This document shows, piece by piece, positions 5,884-54,021 of a DNA stretch of 64,000 nt. The notes beneath the pieces were generated by a model. That model saw only the letters and a program-made list of their open reading frames with translations. It was not told the origin of the DNA and searched no databases. A program made the position numbers and the translations under genes. The stretch comes from Psychrosphaera haliotis (GTDB taxonomy: Bacteria > Pseudomonadota > Gammaproteobacteria > Enterobacterales > Alteromonadaceae). Each line of letters starts with the position of its first letter. Within the stretch, counting starts at the first letter, position 1. The stretch is from assembly GCF_009728465.1 (NCBI RefSeq), contig NZ_WOCD01000005.1:620001-684000 (forward strand), given 5' to 3'.

Positions 5884-7105
5884 TTACATTCCTACTAAAG
5901 TGTTCATTTGCATTATGGGCTGCAAAATTGCCATTAATATAAACATCACCATACCGGCCATCACCAATACAATTAAAGGCGTTAACAAGCCTAAGCTTAT
6001 TTTTAACGTTGCATCCATTTCATTGTCTTGGTTATCAGCAGCGCGGCCTAACATTTGTTCTAGTTCACCTGACTTCTCACCACTGCCAATCATATGGATC
6101 ATCATGGGAGGAAACGTTTTACTTTGCTGTAACGAGTTTTTTAAAGAACTACCTTCACGAACTGCATCTGAGGCGTCTTTTACACACTTCTGAATATATT
6201 TGTTGGTTAATACTTGTCCCGCTATTTTCATTCCGTCTAATATCGGCACTGCACTTGATGCTAGAATGCTCAAGGTTTCTCGCAAAACGAGCCGTATTTG
6301 CGCCCAATATAACTCGACCTATCAAAGGTAGACTTAACAACCAGCGATCAAACTTAAGTCGAATAGCTGGCTGCTTAAGCATTCGTTGCATGATCACGCT
6401 AATGCCTAAAATACCAATCAACACAAACACACCATAATCAATAATGAAATCACTGAGCGTTAATAAAAACTGTGTGGTACCAGGCAGTGTCGCGCCGGAC
6501 TCAACAAACTGACCTACTATTTGTGGCACCACCGATGCCAACAGAAACGCAACGATACCAATGGCAAATAGCGTCAGCATAATTGGGTAAATCATAGCTT
6601 GAGTAAGCTGACTTTTGGTGGCTTGACGTTTTTCTGTGTAATCGGCCAAGCGATTTAATACTTCATCCAAATGGCCAGACTTTTCGCCTGCGGCCACCAT
6701 TGAACGAAACAAATGATCGAATATTGTTGGAAACTCTTTCATGCCGTCGGCAAGAGTATAACCTTCAACCACCTTTGAACGGATAGACATGATGGTTCTT
6801 TTTAAACGCGGTTTTTCACACTGTTCAGCAACGGCTAACAGCGCCGCTTCAATAGTTAATGCTGAACCAACTAGCGTCGCTAACTGACGCGTAATTAATG
6901 CTAAGTCAGAGGCAGAAACCGTAGGTTGAAACAAAGTAAAACCTGTACTTTCTTGCTGTTCTTTTTGGCTTGCTTTGTTTATCTCAAGCGGAATAAGACC
7001 TTTGTCTCGAAGCTGTTGGCGAATTTGTTTTGATGTGTCCGCTTCAAGTATGCCTTTTTTAGATTTTCCCTTCGCATCAAGCGCTTTATATTCAAAAGCC
7101 GCCAT
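5884..7105 (-). pseudogene. gspF: Type II secretion platform protein F, split by one extra base
   Basis: GspF is the polytopic inner-membrane platform protein of the type II system, with two repeated cytoplasmic helical domains and three membrane segments. Here the N-terminal two thirds (7105 to about 6280) and the C-terminal third (to 5884) lie in different frames. Removing one A from the AAA at 6278-6276 joins them as ARFAR-TLSILASSAVPILDG, giving 406 residues, the usual length. The ATG overlaps the gspE stop as TAATG. All neighbours are intact and GspF is indispensable for secretion, so a sequencing error is more likely than a true lesion. Confidence 0.9.
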
Positions 7106-36532: not shown

Positions 36533-36595
36533 ATTTGGATCTCTTGTAGATAAAATTAACAAAAGACCCGGTCGTAAGCGCGAGTAGTCCTGGAT

Positions 36596-36693
36596 TTACC
36601 ATCCCTACGCCGGTACAAGCCGGATCAGGTTCTAAGGGTCCGATTAACGTCTCAGTATGTCGCTTTTACACGCATACACCCCTTGGTGTTTCG
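36596..36693 (-). promoter_or_regulatory. TPP riboswitch (THI element)
   Basis: On the minus strand the conserved segments appear in order: GGGGTG, CTGAGA, ACCCTTAGAACCTGATC, then CCGG(CTTGTA)CCGG and GCGTAGGGA. This is the full thiamine pyrophosphate aptamer. About 60 bases separate it from the receptor ATG. I could not identify a clear terminator or a strong sequestering hairpin, so the mode of control (transcription or translation) stays open. Confidence 0.96.
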
Positions 36694-37199: not shown

Positions 37200-37332
37200 A
37201 CATTTAAGTTCTTTTTATTCACTAGTCGATAATGTAACCACGTTTATCGCAAAAATAACAGATAGACTTGGTTTTTTAGCCACCTGTAAGGTATTCTGCG
37301 GCCTCATATTTAATCAATTAGGTTAACGCACT

Positions 37333-44606: not shown

Positions 44607-45296
44607 TTGACGAAGTTTACTTGGATTATTCCCTTCATTCAAAGTGTTGCACCCTGCTGTTTATGTAATGAAAAAATAAAACAAACCCGAAGGCATCGGG
44701 TGCCAACATTATGCAGGGTTTGTTTTAATGATTTGCGCTTTTTACCCAACGGGTTGGACTTAACTCAAACTGAAATAATGGCTCAGCTTGTTTGTGATAA
44801 TGTTGATGGCATTGCCACCATTGGAGACTATAGCTGGCCATTATCAATGTGGCTTAGCCAGCTTAAATTTTCACAGGAGCTGCAAGCTAGTCGGTTAATT
44901 GGATACCTTTTAGCACGCCAAGTTGAGCAACAAAATTGGCCTGAAATCGATCTTGTATGTGCCCTTCCACTTCATCCGTTAAGGTGGGTTTCTCGCGGGT
45001 ACAATCAGTCTGTGCTTATCATGTCTGCCTTTTTAAAGGAGATTGAAATTCCTGTATATACAGGTTTAGTTCGACATAAATATACGAGAGCACAGTCGGC
45101 TAGTAATAGAGAAAAACGCTTAACCAATATTGCCAATGCGTTTATTGCCATAGAGCCAATTTTAGATAAAAAAGTATTATTGATAGACGATGTTTTGACG
45201 ACGGGCGCGAGCATAAAAGCTGCTACCCTTGCCTTAAAGAACGCGGGCGCCACCGACGTTTATATTGCCTGTGGCGCAACACGTTTGTTTATTTAA
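44607..45296 (+). CDS. comF: ComF family phosphoribosyltransferase-like protein
   Basis: ComF (GntX/YhgH) is needed for DNA uptake or its later steps in competent bacteria. The product has a small N-terminal zinc-binding part (CCLC ... CRVC) and a phosphoribosyltransferase fold with VLLIDDVLTTGAS. The frame is open to ATG 44490 and ATG 44511 inside bioH. TTG 44607 places the start about 14 residues before the first cysteine, as in E. coli, and avoids the overlap, but it lacks a ribosome site. From TTG it is 229 residues. Confidence 0.82.
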   Translation: MTKFTWIIPFIQSVAPCCLCNEKIKQTRRHRVPTLCRVCFNDLRFLPNGLDLTQTEIMAQLVCDNVDGIATIGDYSWPLSMWLSQLKFSQELQASRLIGYLLARQVEQQNWPEIDLVCALPLHPLRWVSRGYNQSVLIMSAFLKEIEIPVYTGLVRHKYTRAQSASNREKRLTNIANAFIAIEPILDKKVLLIDDVLTTGASIKAATLALKNAGATDVYIACGATRLFI

Positions 45297-47918
45297 TAAC
45301 GAACCGCAGGGGCCATAAATAAACTATTAACAAATAAACGATTTGAGCCGTACATTATTGCTCTAAAGTTAGGGTTATCCGTCATTCCGATGACCACTCC
45401 TCGGCCCATTCTTTGCGCTACTAGTCCAGTCGCTCCGGCAATTTTTTCTACATTGGTATTGTCGGCATAACCAGCCATTAAAGGCTTGTCGGTATAAGTT
45501 GCTACTGAGCTAAAAGGTACTTTTGGTGTTAACAATAAGTCTGTGCGGTTTTTAAATAGCGCAATAGTATTGTTTGTTAAACCAAAGGCCAGCGGGTGCG
45601 ATAAATCAAGCTTTGCTTCAAAGAAAGCACCAGCTACACGTTGCTTACCGCCTAGTGCTTCTTTATCGCCAAACTTTAAATCGTCCGAATTAAAACGCTT
45701 ATACATTTCGCTTTGAGCAATAGTGTCTACTTTTAACAGCCCTTCTTTGGCCAACCATAACGCAGCACGTTTTTGTCCCCAAACTGTACCGCCTTGCCTA
45801 GCAAACTCTTTTAAATCATCAGCTAATGATTCATCTTTTTAGAGTAGCTGCCGTCCGTTAATACAACGTGCGTGTAATCCGATAGGTTTACATAACCTAA
45901 GCTGCTTTTATTTATGATGGTTGGAGAAAAGCCAACATGACTATCTAGCATGTACCAAGCTTCGCCCACTTCATATAGATTTGCACCTATGCCGCCCACC
46001 ATTAGAACTTTTGGCAAGGTAACAGGCATCATCAATCGGCTACCTAAATCAATGCCCGTAGATGTTAAGCCACTCTTGATTGTAGATACGCTAACCGGGT
46101 ATTTGCTCAACGCTTTGTTGACCTTGTTTTGCCAACCTTCTTGTTGCAAACCTGCATTAATTAACATTGTGCCTGCCGCAAATGCCTTCGCGCTTTGACC
46201 ACTTGTTGTATTTGAGTTAATGCTAGCAATGGTGTTTGCATTAAATGGTTTAAGCGCAGCTCTTACTTTAATTCCGTTGTTTAATAGCTCATAAATAAGT
46301 GCTGGCGCGTTAAAGTCATGCCAATCGATAGCAATGCTATATGCTGAGTTCATATCAAGTTTAGCGGCTGTATTTTGCGGTAACTGCCAAGGTGTGTTTG
46401 ACAGCTTTAACTTTCTTGCAGACTCTACTTTTTCAAATTGAATATTAAACGCGTACGCTAAATTCCAGCTCGATACATCGTAAAAAGTATTGTCGTTAAA
46501 CGATGTTTGAGTTGAGAATATTGATTGAATTAGTCTGACTTGTGGTTGATTTAAAGGCACGTAAACAGAATTTGATGCAATTACCTTTTTACCGTTCACT
46601 TTAGTATCAGAGTTTAACGCGTAAGATTTAATATTATGTTTAGATAAAAGCGCTAACAGTTTGTTAAGTCTTGTTTTGTCGTTTTTCTCAGTTAATAAAT
46701 AACCATCAAAATCGGCTTTTTTTACTAAGCTTTTAACACTCGATTTAAATTCGTCTTGGAAGCTTTTTAAGTCATCACTACTTTTCAGGCTGCCTTCTAA
46801 CGTTGAAAACGAAGACATTACTTGATGTTTAATAGTGGTAGGGAAATCTAAATCACCGTTAATCGATTCTTGAATGTGGCCGCGACTAGAGGCTTGCTCA
46901 AACAAAATACCAATACTGCCGTGCAAATCAGGATACGTTGAACCTTTACCTGCATAAAAGTCATCAAAAGCTTCTTCAGTAAAATAAAGCTTGTTTGCTT
47001 CATCAAAGGCTTTTGCATGATACGTGGCTAACTGTTTAGTCAGCGCGACGTTTTTATCTGGCGTTAGTGGATTTTTTCGCGAAGGAATACCTGGCTGAAA
47101 AAAGAACGAGCTGTTTGTGCCCATTTCATGGTGATCCGTTAATACATGCGGACGCCATTGTTGGTATTCAGCAATTCGCGCTTGCGACTCTGGATGTTGT
47201 AGCAATAACCAATCACGGTTTAAGTCAAACCAATACTGATTTACGCGACCACGAATCCAACCTTGATTATGTTCACGGTTATTTGGGTCTTTGTTAATGT
47301 TTTTGCCTTTGTGCTGATTGGCCCAAAGCGCAAAACGACTCAAACCATCAGGATTTAGGCTTGGGTCAATAATAATCACCATTTCATCTAAGTACTGATT
47401 AACCATCGCGCTGTTTGAGGCCGCTAAATAATACGCCACCAACATTGAGGCATTGCTACCCGATGATTCATCACCGTGCACGCTGTAATTTAGGTTTACA
47501 ATGAGCGGCGCTGATTTGCTATTTGAGTTGTTTTTCTTATTTTCATTAAAATACTCAGAGCGCTGCTTTTTAAGGTTTTCTAACGAACTAACACGATTTG
47601 GATTAGTAATAGTGACATGCAACAACTCTCGTTGCTGTGTGAATAACCAATGGTTTTCACTTCTACTCGGTCACTGGCCGCGGCTAGCGCTTTATAATAA
47701 GCCACCAGCTGGTCATGCCTTACGTGCCATTCACCCACTTGGTAGCCCAATACAGACTCTGGAGTTGGGATAGCTTGATTGTAATTTTCAGCAGGCAAGT
47801 AAAACGATAATTCATTATGAAGCGGTGTTTTTGCCGCCGCTGTAAATGACAATGCTAAAAGCAGTAAAAAGGCTGTTTTTACTGTTGAGATAAGTTTATT
47901 CATGGTATCAGTAGCCAT
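45293..47918 (-). pseudogene. M14 family zinc carboxypeptidase, split by two missing bases
   Basis: The protein has a signal peptide (ending TAAAK) and an M14 catalytic domain with zinc ligands HGDE and His in DHHEMG and catalytic Glu in LFEQASSRG. A C-terminal glutamine-amidotransferase-like domain follows. Three frames carry consecutive parts. One missing base at 47630/47631 would restore GYSHSNRELLHVTITN. One missing A in the A-run at 45840-45836 would restore SYSKKDESLADDLKEF. The corrected length is 875 residues, normal for marine gammaproteobacterial members. It converges with comF with a short overlap. Confidence 0.85.
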
Positions 47919-48123
47919 CTTTTATTATTAATTAAGTTAAAGATAACAAGTAACTATATGAAACAACAAGTCTGACTAAAAGTTAGTCGTTGAATAACTG
48001 TAAACAGGGGTTTATTTGTTAAAAATTGCCCAAACATATAGATAACTAAAAGGCGTCAAGGTTGCAGTAAATAAGCGATAGACGTATCATTGCAAATAAC
48101 CGAGTAATTAGTCAGATATTATT

Positions 48124-48698
48124 ATGATCAATATTTCAGAATCAGCGCAACAGCACTTGTAAAGCTGTTGGACACGCAAGCACCAAACACTAGAATTAGA
48201 GTTTTTGTAGTAAACGCCGGTCTAGCAGTGCTGATGTGGCGTATCTTACTCCCAGAAGATTCACTAGAGCCAGAAGACAAAATCCTTTCTTATGAAGGCT
48301 TTGAAGCTGCTGTAGATGAAGAAAGTCAGCCGTATTTAGAAGACGCTGAGATTGATTTTGTTACCGATCAAATGGGTTCACAATATACGCTGAAAGCGCC
48401 GAATGCAAAAGCACGTAAAGTGTCATCAGATGCTCCGCTTAAAGCTAGAATTCAATACTTCATTGAGTCTGAAGTTAATCCAGGGTTAGCGAGCCACGGT
48501 GGTCACGTAAACTTAGTTGAATTGACGGAAGACGGTATCGTTGTTCTTCAATTTGGCGGCGGTTGTAACGGCTGTTCTATGGTAGATGTGACACTAAAAG
48601 ATGGTATTGAAACTCAAATGCTACAACAGTTTGACGGCGAAGTGACTGGCGTTAAAGACGTCACTGAACACCAAGCTGGTGAGCACTCTTACTACTAA
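48124..48698 (+). pseudogene. nfuA: Fe/S biogenesis protein NfuA, with several apparent missing bases
   Basis: NfuA carries 4Fe-4S clusters to target proteins. The C-terminal Nfu domain is intact with [15 protein letters not shown] and the family ending EHSYY. The A-type N-terminal domain is disturbed. ATG 48124 ([11 protein letters not shown]) runs into TAA, and one added T at about 48158 rejoins it to [19 protein letters not shown]. Further single-base gaps near 48221, 48234 and 48251 garble the next stretch, where CGVSY is readable in another frame. With four added bases the length is 192 residues (E. coli 191). Confidence 0.88.
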
Positions 48699-48712
48699 GT
48701 TGATTGTTGAGC

Positions 48713-48961
48713 ATGGCAAAGCCAGATAAATTACAGCGGACATTAGTGCGATGGGGCGAAACCCAAAGCGCAGTGTTCGCTTTTTATTATTGGACTATGT
48801 CTTTTTGTATTGGGTGGTTCGGTCTTTACTTAGGTGCAAACGTTGGATTGGTGGCAAATCCCCGCTGTTGCGATAATGTTGCTGGTGTTCTGGTCACACT
48901 TAAAGGCTACCTAGGTATTGTTGCTAATCGATTGGCGTTCTTTCGTCATCAGCACAATTAA
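48713..48961 (+). CDS. Unrecognised small membrane protein, frame doubtful
   Basis: An 82-codon frame starts at ATG 48713, 15 bases after nfuA, and encodes one clear hydrophobic segment (FYYWTMSFCIGWFGLYLG). A second hydrophobic segment (AVAIMLLVFWSHLKA) lies in the next frame just beyond CCCC at about 48860, followed in that frame by a TAG and a basic ending KQRKFKHLENA. I read this as one small two-helix membrane protein whose sequence is garbled, but I do not recognise it. Confidence 0.4.
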   Translation: MAKPDKLQRTLVRWGETQSAVFAFYYWTMSFCIGWFGLYLGANVGLVANPRCCDNVAGVLVTLKGYLGIVANRLAFFRHQHN

Positions 48962-48972
48962 ACAAAGAAAAT

Positions 48973-48995
48973 TTAAGCATTTAGAAAATGCTTAA
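48973..48995. terminator. Hairpin between converging genes
   Basis: A perfect 10-bp stem TTAAGCATTT/AAATGCTTAA with a three-base loop. It lies between the small gene after nfuA and the 3' end of the MATE gene. There is no T-run beyond the stem itself. Confidence 0.55.
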
Positions 48996-49026
48996 GCTAA
49001 CTTAGTTGTTATCTCAGACTTAAATT

Positions 49027-50371
49027 TCATTCGTAAATAAACCACTGCGACAAGCCCCTTGCCAACATGAATATTGTAAATGCAGCCCATAAATATGATT
49101 TTGAAGGCGTAGGTGTAGTTGAAGGCATTGCTTAACGAATCAGTTAACGCGTTTGACAGTAAAATAATAGAAAAGAAACACAAAGCGGCGACAATCATAC
49201 TGTTCCTCATGCTTTATCCCAACCTAAGCCAACAAATATCCCATCAAATATAGCTTTAAAAAACCCTTAATGGCAGTAGATAAATCCAAATATAGTAACC
49301 AGTAATTCCGCTCTTCAGTGACTCAATATCCGTTAAAAGCCAAACAATGGCATCAACTGTTAATACATAAAATGCAGCATAACCGAGTGCGAAGGCTAGC
49401 CCCATTTTGATCCCTTGAGTAATGTACAATCGAAGTCTACGTTGCTTTTTTTGACCTACACAATTGCCCACTAATGACTCTAACGCAAAGGCAACGCCAT
49501 CCAATGAAAAAGAGATAAACAAGAAAACTGCATAATTAAGGAATTAATAGCCACCGTTTGGCTGCCAAACTGCGTCGCGTAAATAGTCATGAACGACAAA
49601 CAAAGTTGCAATACAGCGCTTCGTATAAACAAATTGCCGTTCATTCTTAGTAACGCTATCCAGCCTGTTAATACTGACTGTAAGGACACCGCTACCTTAT
49701 TTAACTCTGGTCGAATTAAGTAAATCATCATGCCAAACTGAACAATTTCAGCAAGCACTGAGGCAAACGCAACGCCAGCAACGCCAAAAGACAAAACAGG
49801 CACAAACAAAATGTCAGCAAATAATTCACTACATTACAAACGATTAAGGCTCTAAGCACCCATTTGGTTTTGCCCGAGCCAATCAAAAAACCAGACAAGG
49901 CCATATTCGCCAATACAAAAGGGGCGGCCCAAATACGGATATCAAAATAGGTTTTTGCCGATGCATAGGTCGCTTGCATGGCAAGGTCATCGCTAGATAC
50001 AAAAGTTAAAGAGAGAAGAGTGGTGATTGAAATAGCAGAATAAAGCTCGCTAAGATTACGCTTAAAAGCAACCCTTGATACAAGTGCAATATTGCTGAAG
50101 TTGCCGATTTTTCACCTCTAGCTTTAGCCACTAGGCCAGTTGTAGACATTCTGAGGAAGCCCAACAACCAAAATATTACCGAAATAAACAAACCAGCTAA
50201 CGCTGTACCAGCAAGAAATTGGCTATCGGGTAAATGCCCAATAACCGCAGTATCAACAAATCCCAACATAGGAATGCTAATGTTTGCTAGAATCATAGGC
50301 CAGGCTAAATGCCAAATTTTTAAATTGATGCGGGTACCTGACCACGCAGAGGATTGGAATAGAGATAACAT
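49027..50371 (-). pseudogene. MATE/DinF family efflux transporter, broken by about six indels
   Basis: The N-terminus (LAWPMILANISIPMLGFVDTAVIGHL) is a clear DinF-type MATE exporter, which drives drugs out with Na+ or H+. The rest appears in successive frames: TYFDIRIWAAPFVLANMALSG, then FVPVLSFGVAGVAFASVLAE, then FISFSLDGVAFALESLVG, then FKAIFDGIFVGLGWDKA, MRNSMIVAAL, and finally SYLWAAFTIFMLARG before TGA at 49027. Joins need single-base corrections near 50010, 49812, 49526, 49252, 49210 and 49108, mostly at homopolymers. The corrected length is about 448 residues, normal for the family. Its ATG abuts that of the next gene. Confidence 0.85.
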
Positions 50372-51460
50372 ATGATTAGATTATTACTTAAGCCTATTAG
50401 TGTTTTATTGATGTTAACGACGATGACTAGCTTGTTATGGCATCAATCTGTTTCCGCCGCAACGGTAGTACTTTACCACCATGTTAGCGAAACTACCCCA
50501 AAATCTACTAGTGTCTCTCCGCAACAGTTTGCTGTGCATTTAGCCATGATTGAAGAACTAGGCCTAGAAGTTGTGCCATTAACTCAAATTGTGGATGCCA
50601 TAAAGGCCAATAAGCCGGTTAACCCAAATTGGATTGCAATTACCTTTGATGATGGCTTTAGAAATGTTTATGACACGGCCTTCCCTATGCTCAAAGAAAA
50701 AAACTGGCCTTTTACTGTGTTTGTAAATCCGCTAATGGTCAAGCCAAGCAAACTATATATGGATTGGTCACAGCTTAAAACCTTAACGGAACATGGCGGT
50801 GACATAATGAATCACACCTTGGAGCATGAAAACTTAGTGCAAGGTGGACTGACCAACAAACAAATTGAAACGAATATACTAGTCGCAGAAGAAATGATTA
50901 AAGAGCAGTTAGGACAAAATCACAAAATGGTCGCTTATCCGTTTGGTGAGTATTCTGACAATATTAAAGCTATCCTGGGCAAAAATGGGTTTGTGGGTTT
51001 TGCTCAACACTCGGGTGCTATTAATGAAACTAGCGACCTTTTAGCATTGACTCGTTTTCCTGCTAATGGCATTTACGCCAATCCAAAAACACTAAAAAAC
51101 AAAATTAAAAGCTTAGCGTTTGATTTTGAGAACCAGTCTCCAACAGAAACTTTAGTTCGCAACATTGAAAAAATAGACACTGAGCAAGGACCTCTATGGA
51201 GAGTTAAACTTAAAGGAAAAGACTTTTACCAAAGTCAGTTAGCCTGTTTTATCACGGGTCAATCAGGTCCGGTAAAACCAACTTGGATTTCCGATCTCGA
51301 ATTTGAAATTGCAGCGCCTAAATCTCTTCAAACAGGACGCGTCAAATATAACTGTACGGCACCATCTATTAAAAATAGTGGCCGCTTTTATTGGACCAGT
51401 AAGCTTTGGATTACATTGCCTGATGACTTATCAAGTGAGTTAAATGAGGAAAGTGAATAG
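50372..51460 (+). CDS. Polysaccharide deacetylase family protein
   Basis: The 362-residue exported protein has a signal peptide (about 1-29, ending SVSAA) and a NodB-type domain with the metal Asp in TFDDG and the HxxxH ligand in NHTLEH. The start VVLYHHVS resembles the N-terminal domain of PgaB-like deacetylases. A C-terminal beta-rich domain (about 265-355) is unassigned. The substrate may be a surface N-acetylglucosamine polymer, but no synthase is near. The start ATG directly abuts the MATE ATG. Confidence 0.88.
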   Translation: MIRLLLKPISVLLMLTTMTSLLWHQSVSAATVVLYHHVSETTPKSTSVSPQQFAVHLAMIEELGLEVVPLTQIVDAIKANKPVNPNWIAITFDDGFRNVYDTAFPMLKEKNWPFTVFVNPLMVKPSKLYMDWSQLKTLTEHGGDIMNHTLEHENLVQGGLTNKQIETNILVAEEMIKEQLGQNHKMVAYPFGEYSDNIKAILGKNGFVGFAQHSGAINETSDLLALTRFPANGIYANPKTLKNKIKSLAFDFENQSPTETLVRNIEKIDTEQGPLWRVKLKGKDFYQSQLACFITGQSGPVKPTWISDLEFEIAAPKSLQTGRVKYNCTAPSIKNSGRFYWTSKLWITLPDDLSSELNEESE

Positions 51461-53201: not shown

Positions 53202-54021
53202 TGCGCTATCTTCTGATAAACGTTTTGCCCTAACCCTTTAAACTGAAGATTTTCCCTTCCCATTGACTCAGAGTGTCCCAAAATTAAGTACCCGCCCGGA
53301 GCCAGTAAGTTTGCATAACGGTTAAACAGCTTTACCTTGGTTTCATGATCAAAATAAATAATCACGTTGCGACAAAATATAACGTCAAATGGCCCTTTTA
53401 TTGGCCACTCTTTTAATAGATTAAGTTGTTTAAAACTGATGTTTTGTTTGAGATAAGGCTTGGCCTTATAGCGCTTTGCACTGCCATCTTTAAGGAAGTA
53501 TTTTTTTAGTTGAGCATCACTCAATCCTGATACTTGACCACCTTCATATATAGCTTCTCTGCCAGACTCTAAAACATTGGTATCAAGGTCTGTTGCCAAA
53601 ATTTTGAAGTCCCAGTTTGAAGGGATAAGCTTGTCTAAGCATATTGCAATTGAGTAAGGCTCCATTCCAAGTGAGCAGCCTGCCGACCATATTCGCACGC
53701 GGTGATCACTTTTATGCCGACTCAATATCTCAGGTACCGCCGTTTTCTTCAAAAAATCGAAGTGATGTGTTTCTCTAAAAAACGACGTTAAGTTTGTGGT
53801 AATTGCATTTATAAACTCACCAAATTCAACTGACTCGTTATTGTTTAAATACGAGATATACTCAGAGAACGAAGATAACCCTAGCTTCCTCAGTCGTCTT
53901 GAAATGCGCGCGTATACCATGTCTTTTTTTGCTCAGATAAAACAATGCCACAGGCTTCATAAACTCTTTCACTTATGAAGCTGTAGTCCTTGCTTGTCAT
54001 TAGAAACTCTTTGTTATCCAA
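53198..54021 (-). pseudogene. cheR: Chemotaxis methyltransferase CheR, broken at an A-run (possible programmed frameshift)
   Basis: CheR methylates receptor glutamates using S-adenosylmethionine. The main frame (from GTATACGCGCGC onward) has most of the N-terminal helical domain and the methyltransferase fold (RIWSAGCSLGMEPYSIA, FDVIFCRNVIIYF). The first 30 residues lie in another frame: TTG 54021, with AAGGAG seven bases upstream, encodes MDNKEFLMTSKDYSF...ACGIVLSEQ. One added A in the run at 53930-53924 joins them as SEQKKDMVYARISRRL, 274 residues, the standard length. The break coincides with an A_AAA_AAG heptamer in the right phase for -1 slippage. ATG 54000 is an alternative start. Confidence 0.88.

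Follow-up and report, generated by a model that had tools for sequence, protein, structure and literature searches.

A cluster of missing bases across nfuA and a MATE transporter gene of a Psychrosphaera-like bacterium, most probably an uncorrected consensus error

The window analysed here, a stretch of 64,000 nucleotides (G000:C5:620001-684000) within a 3.24-Mb assembly of five contigs, comes from a Psychrosphaera-like marine gammaproteobacterium and carries a dense cluster of frame breaks across nfuA, a small unnamed gene and a gene for a MATE family transporter. We conclude, with a probability of about 95%, that this cluster stems from consensus errors left uncorrected in a long-read draft, at a place where few reads probably carried the contig. 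Four observations form the basis of this conclusion: the bases of the cluster are missing, the same signature recurs at several contig ends, nfuA is unbroken in the relatives, and the constraint on the MATE gene is not reduced. The feature is almost certainly an artefact, and a warning about sequence quality, rather than biology.

Breaks were called with a frameshift-aware dynamic program for protein-DNA alignment, comparing the translated open reading frames of G005, the closest of the relatives searched and our main reference, with the window. The trimmed alignment covers 52,038 coding bases of the window and contains 23 indel frame breaks, 17 of which belong to the cluster (1,979 aligned bases within 47,600-50,050; Table 1). 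Every one of the 17 is a missing-base break, 16 single and one double, with no extra base in the protein alignment; one affects the M14 peptidase gene, four affect nfuA, seven the small gene and five, amounting to six bases, the MATE gene. The six breaks outside the cluster, three missing and three extra bases, are found in 50.1 kb. When 23 breaks were placed at random 20,000 times, the fullest interval of 2,450 bp never held more than eight, versus the 17 observed. The original prediction had counted about four bases to be added in nfuA and about six corrections in the MATE gene, with similar breaks in the small gene between them and a density far above that of the rest of the window, and all of this agrees with our alignments. 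It had placed the cluster at 48124-50371; breaks are indeed clustered there, but they start ca. 500 bp earlier, and include the M14 gene and the DNA upstream of nfuA. Likewise, what it called indels are all missing bases, so the latter term is more apt.

Table 1. Location in the window of the break cluster and of the features that it affects.
Feature	Position	Strand	Remarks
Missing-base break cluster, first to last break	47636..50011	.	17 breaks, 18 bases, in the frameshift-aware alignment to G005
M14-type peptidase gene	45296..47903	-	865 aa in G005; of its two breaks, the one at ~47,636 belongs to the cluster
Conserved non-coding DNA upstream of nfuA	48082..48123	+	Two single-base gaps versus G005 in the DNA alignment
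nfuA (Fe-S biogenesis protein NfuA)	48124..48698	+	N-terminal A-type part affected by four missing-base breaks
Small unnamed gene	48713..48986	+	94 aa in G005; 7 to 8 missing-base breaks
MATE family transporter gene	49022..50380	-	446 aa in G005; 5 to 8 missing-base breaks

Without trimming, end-to-end alignment adds one break in the small gene and three in the poorly aligned C-terminus of the MATE gene, as well as two outside the cluster and near gene starts (a missing base at ~53,931 and an extra base at ~62,530). At the DNA level, positions 48,082-50,380 align with 15 single-base gaps on the window side and one on the G005 side, versus none and one, respectively, in control alignments of three stretches totalling 9,942 bp. 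Because gaps also occur in the conserved non-coding DNA upstream of nfuA, the losses ignore gene boundaries. Of 17 gaps of a single base, ten fall in runs of at least two bases, versus 48% of bases, which is a weak enrichment. A tract of ~500 bp, from 48,250 to 48,752 (nfuA), is free of breaks, and three longer window stretches of 10, 26 and 28 bases are unpaired with G005 in a poorly aligned part, at ~48,970-49,120, near the MATE C-terminus.

The background differs from the cluster both in density and in sign. Close to the window, L050, L051 and L052, three interior stretches with 53,987 aligned bases, contain six breaks, two missing and four extra; together with the window outside the cluster, they give 12 breaks in ~104 kb, five missing and seven extra. 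This is equivalent to ~0.12 breaks per kb with mixed sign, against 8.6 per aligned kb in the cluster and 6.8 at the start of contig C1. Missing bases account for 17/17 breaks in the cluster versus 5/12 in the background (one-sided Fisher test, 0.0005, or 0.0004 if the two breaks from the untrimmed alignment are included).

Isolated single extra bases at window positions 6277 and 19372, in genes that are 90% and 71% identical to those of G005, are part of this mixed-sign background. The start region of a 766-aa gene carries three mixed-sign breaks within 130 bp (36537-36667) and a stop between them; this could be either a second small error patch or an altered start region; there is also a stop near 37,324. 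The missing base at 53931 is near the start of a gene, presumably cheR (274 aa in G005), that adjoins a cheD-like gene. This break appears only in the untrimmed alignment, and in tblastn as a piece of its own that lies in a different frame.

We searched 29 relatives, seven of which are of the same genus as the window. Against all seven same-genus relatives, the five MATE breaks reappear to within a few bases, as does the M14 break at ~47,636. The nfuA breaks recur as well, with exceptions: the first is visible with two of the seven relatives, the initial residues being unaligned in the other five, and with three of the seven, two adjacent breaks merge into one double break. The small gene was aligned to G005 alone; for the M14 break at 45,840, the alignment to G007 gives a double insertion. 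The NfuA protein of G005 aligns without breaks to 29/29 relatives and to 80/80 named loci (two sets that share some genomes), whereas the same alignment to the window's own locus yields four breaks. Alignment to this locus in close relatives, put forward as a check in the original prediction, shows nfuA unbroken in the relatives and the breaks of the window recurring against them.

The C-terminal NifU domain of the window nfuA is in frame, and this gene is the sole NifU-domain match in the assembly (E value of 0.001). Its open reading frame matches the two NfuA models, NF008392 and TIGR03341, from model position 16-17 to the end, scoring 265.4 and 241.6 bits against cut-offs of 268 and 269.35; it stays 2.6 and 27.8 bits below them, with the first part of the protein out of frame. 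The size of an open frame cannot prove that nfuA is intact, because the frame through the broken gene of the window is still 196 aa long. For the MATE gene (Pfam PF01554; nearest NCBIfam model PRK10367, DinF), the window fragments match consecutive parts of the model but, unlike in intact family members, are split across several frames; the intact protein of G005 is also below the DinF cut-off (274.8 versus 409 bits). The M14 fragment in the window and the protein of the relative both match Pfam PF00246. For the small gene, including its intact form in G005, we obtained no matches in Pfam (E value of 0.001) or NCBIfam (E value of 1e-10).

If low read depth is the cause of the cluster, contig ends should show a like signature. 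We thus compared the rRNA copies of the assembly, classed by hand as end or interior, in edit-distance alignments to one reference copy on contig C4, because a high gap penalty gave false runs of substitutions. Contig-end copies show 76 missing, 10 extra and 3 substituted bases in 10,751, versus 2 missing, no extra and 1 substituted in the 14,771 bases of interior copies. By contig, there were 37 missing, 7 extra and 2 substituted bases in 2,849 at the right end of C5; 7 missing and 1 extra in 469 at its left end; 24 missing, 2 extra and 1 substituted in 3,756 at the right end of C1; and 8 missing in 3,677 at the right end of C3. The signature varies in strength: the tip of C3 lacks a single base in 805 rRNA bases, whereas the tip of C1 has 19 missing and 2 extra bases in 882. 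The reference copy, located 0.8 kb short of the right end of C4, carries no such errors, indicating that not every contig end is bad. Runs of at least two bases contain 56 of the 76 missing bases in contig-end rRNA.

Protein-coding genes at contig ends are likewise affected. The first 3.3 kb of C1 (L055 1-3315), with rplT, infC and thrS, contain 18 missing-base breaks and one extra-base break, and the next seven aligned genes contain none. The first 5.6 kb of C3 hold eight missing-base breaks and one extra-base break, versus a single break in the next 12 aligned genes. The genes rplT, infC and thrS, named from their G005 orthologs, to which they are 94-97% identical, code for ribosomal protein L20, IF-3 and threonyl-tRNA synthetase, and are generally indispensable. 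Their breaks are a stronger argument than the importance of NfuA for fitness, which the original prediction had invoked: the available text of a study with P. aeruginosa (PMC6084964) does describe stress and anaerobic defects, but loss of NfuA is tolerated there in aerobic conditions, so the fitness argument alone is not decisive.

Contigs C3 and C4 have in common a 2.3-kb non-rRNA stretch that differs by 11 internal unpaired bases, five missing in C4 and six in C3, and by no mismatches (this count omits eight unpaired bases at the very end, an end effect). The two copies resemble separate drafts of one sequence; the other reading is that of a real recent duplication. We did not use a longer C3/C4 comparison that runs towards the rRNA, with misaligned patches (14 mismatches), or a C4/C5 comparison with a 15-base unpaired run and four mismatches.

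The rRNA operons appear in tandem, ~6.56 kb apart, in L058 (G000:C4, 15.4 kb), L153 (end of C1) and L156 (start of C5), and both C4 and the C1 end hold two large-subunit genes; those of G005 occupy five separate places among the matches listed. Where it overlaps the ends of C3, C1 and C5, C4 is more than 99% identical to them. It may be that C3, C1, C5 and C4 are joined through a tandem rRNA array, or that the duplication is an effect of assembly. The low coding density of contig ends does not reflect ruined genes, because rRNA operons are located there. We used a reference-free gene-finder HMM with frame-switch states solely to point us to contig ends, since it is confounded by overlapping gene junctions and loses the coding signal in dense error patches; on the cluster, it recovered 4 of the 17 breaks, one of them 63 bases off. 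Calls of this HMM alone also include missing-base frame switches at L056 11929-12062 and L154 9914-11416 (contig C2).

In all, the differences are deletion-biased single-base indels with few substitutions, affect coding and non-coding sequences alike (the DNA upstream of nfuA and the rRNA genes), and recur with variable strength at several contig ends. We propose that few reads spanned the contig at the cluster, and that skipped bases, which would be the dominant raw error of a presumably long-read platform, were left in the consensus because of the few reads there; living cells would then carry intact genes. The assembly is 88.9% complete, versus 99-100% for six of the seven same-genus relatives, despite a size similar to those of G005 and G007, and this incompleteness would fit the same cause; the seventh relative is likewise just 89% complete, in 290 contigs. 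Several points do not sit easily with consensus error: the cluster is interior to a 976-kb contig instead of terminal, and it includes no extra bases among its 17 breaks, versus 10 of the 89 differences in contig-end rRNA. The variation among contig ends, the break-free tract in nfuA, the weak enrichment in runs and the longer stretches unpaired with G005 also count against it.

An interior spot of low depth needs a reason, and this could be that the assembly was patched there from a minor strain, or followed a minor path at a structural variant, with most of the reads going elsewhere. The completeness of 88.9% in just five contigs would also fit a metagenome bin. However, gene order around the cluster is the same as in the relatives, with no extra or missing genes seen, and such a patch would explain solely why depth was low; we therefore consider it an unlikely sub-case of the consensus error.

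Much less probable is real gene decay, by which this lineage would have pseudogenes in place of nfuA, the adjacent small gene and the MATE gene. Their frames are certainly disrupted in the given sequence relative to those of the relatives, as in pseudogenes, and the three longer stretches unpaired with G005 would suit decay. Moreover, a P. aeruginosa nfuA deletion mutant plates normally in aerobic conditions with a small growth defect, according to the portion available of PMC6084964. Nevertheless, decay does not account for the damage to non-coding DNA, for the like signature in rplT, infC, thrS and rRNA, or for the absence of nfuA breaks from every relative and named locus compared, and the substitutions also argue against it. 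We counted lineage-specific changes outside the breaks in the window versus G005, with G007 as the third sequence. The MATE gene is as constrained as its intact relative, with 27 amino-acid changes in the window and 26 in G005 and a ratio of changes in positions 1+2 to position 3 of 0.78 versus 0.74. The corresponding values, window versus G005, were 8 and 5 changes for nfuA (ratio 0.43 versus 0.24) and 6 and 4 for the small gene (0.91 versus 0.83), both from small counts, and 42 and 49 for the M14 gene (0.57 versus 0.78); ratios for five other neighbour genes were 0.47-0.69 in the window and 0.46-0.72 in G005. There is thus no relaxed selection in the MATE substitutions of the window compared with G005, and the values are slightly raised for nfuA and the small gene. 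We see no sign of long-term decay, and the small excess in nfuA consists of few changes.

Even less credible is a real burst of single-base deletions, such as an error-prone polymerase copying a tract of ~2.4 kb might leave. It would have to be recent, because substitutions in the affected genes look ordinary, and it would account for a tight cluster composed exclusively of missing bases in such genes. But it requires at least 17 deletions within 2.4 kb while substitutions did not increase to match, and a like signature appears at several contig ends and in the rRNA of the same assembly. Programmed frameshifting is dismissed by the excessive number of sites, including non-coding DNA and rRNA; a misjoin, by the gene order shared with relatives; and a sequencing artefact from motif-tied modified bases, by the reasoning that it would recur across the genome and not cluster. 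The preference of the original prediction for consensus error over decay or a mutational hotspot is therefore upheld by the contig-end signature, the indel-only differences between C3 and C4 and the constraint on the MATE gene.

For users of the assembly, the consequence of a consensus error is that annotation would score nfuA and the MATE gene as absent or as pseudogenes; the same error breaks rplT, infC and thrS at a contig end. Comparing contig-end with interior rRNA copies offers a simple gauge, independent of reads, of the error signature in long-read drafts. Were the deletions true, they would represent an unusual mutation burst.

Errors of this kind have been described in other drafts, as far as the accessible parts of the following reports go. 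In one nanopore draft, false indels were mostly deletions and broke genes (PMC12007338). Frameshift correction had a larger effect in low-coverage contigs, and raised the completeness of two MAGs from ~85% to 94-95% (PMC8103633). Likewise, indels in the consensus lead to frameshift calls, and polishing is needed for bins of low coverage (PMC9262707). Compared with what these parts describe, our case differs in that the errors are concentrated in one interior patch of 2.4 kb plus several contig ends, and in that their tie to homopolymers is weak. It resembles the published long-read drafts, as covered there, in the dominance of single-base deletions, the broken frames with intact homologs, the reduced completeness of marker genes and the presumed worsening at low coverage.
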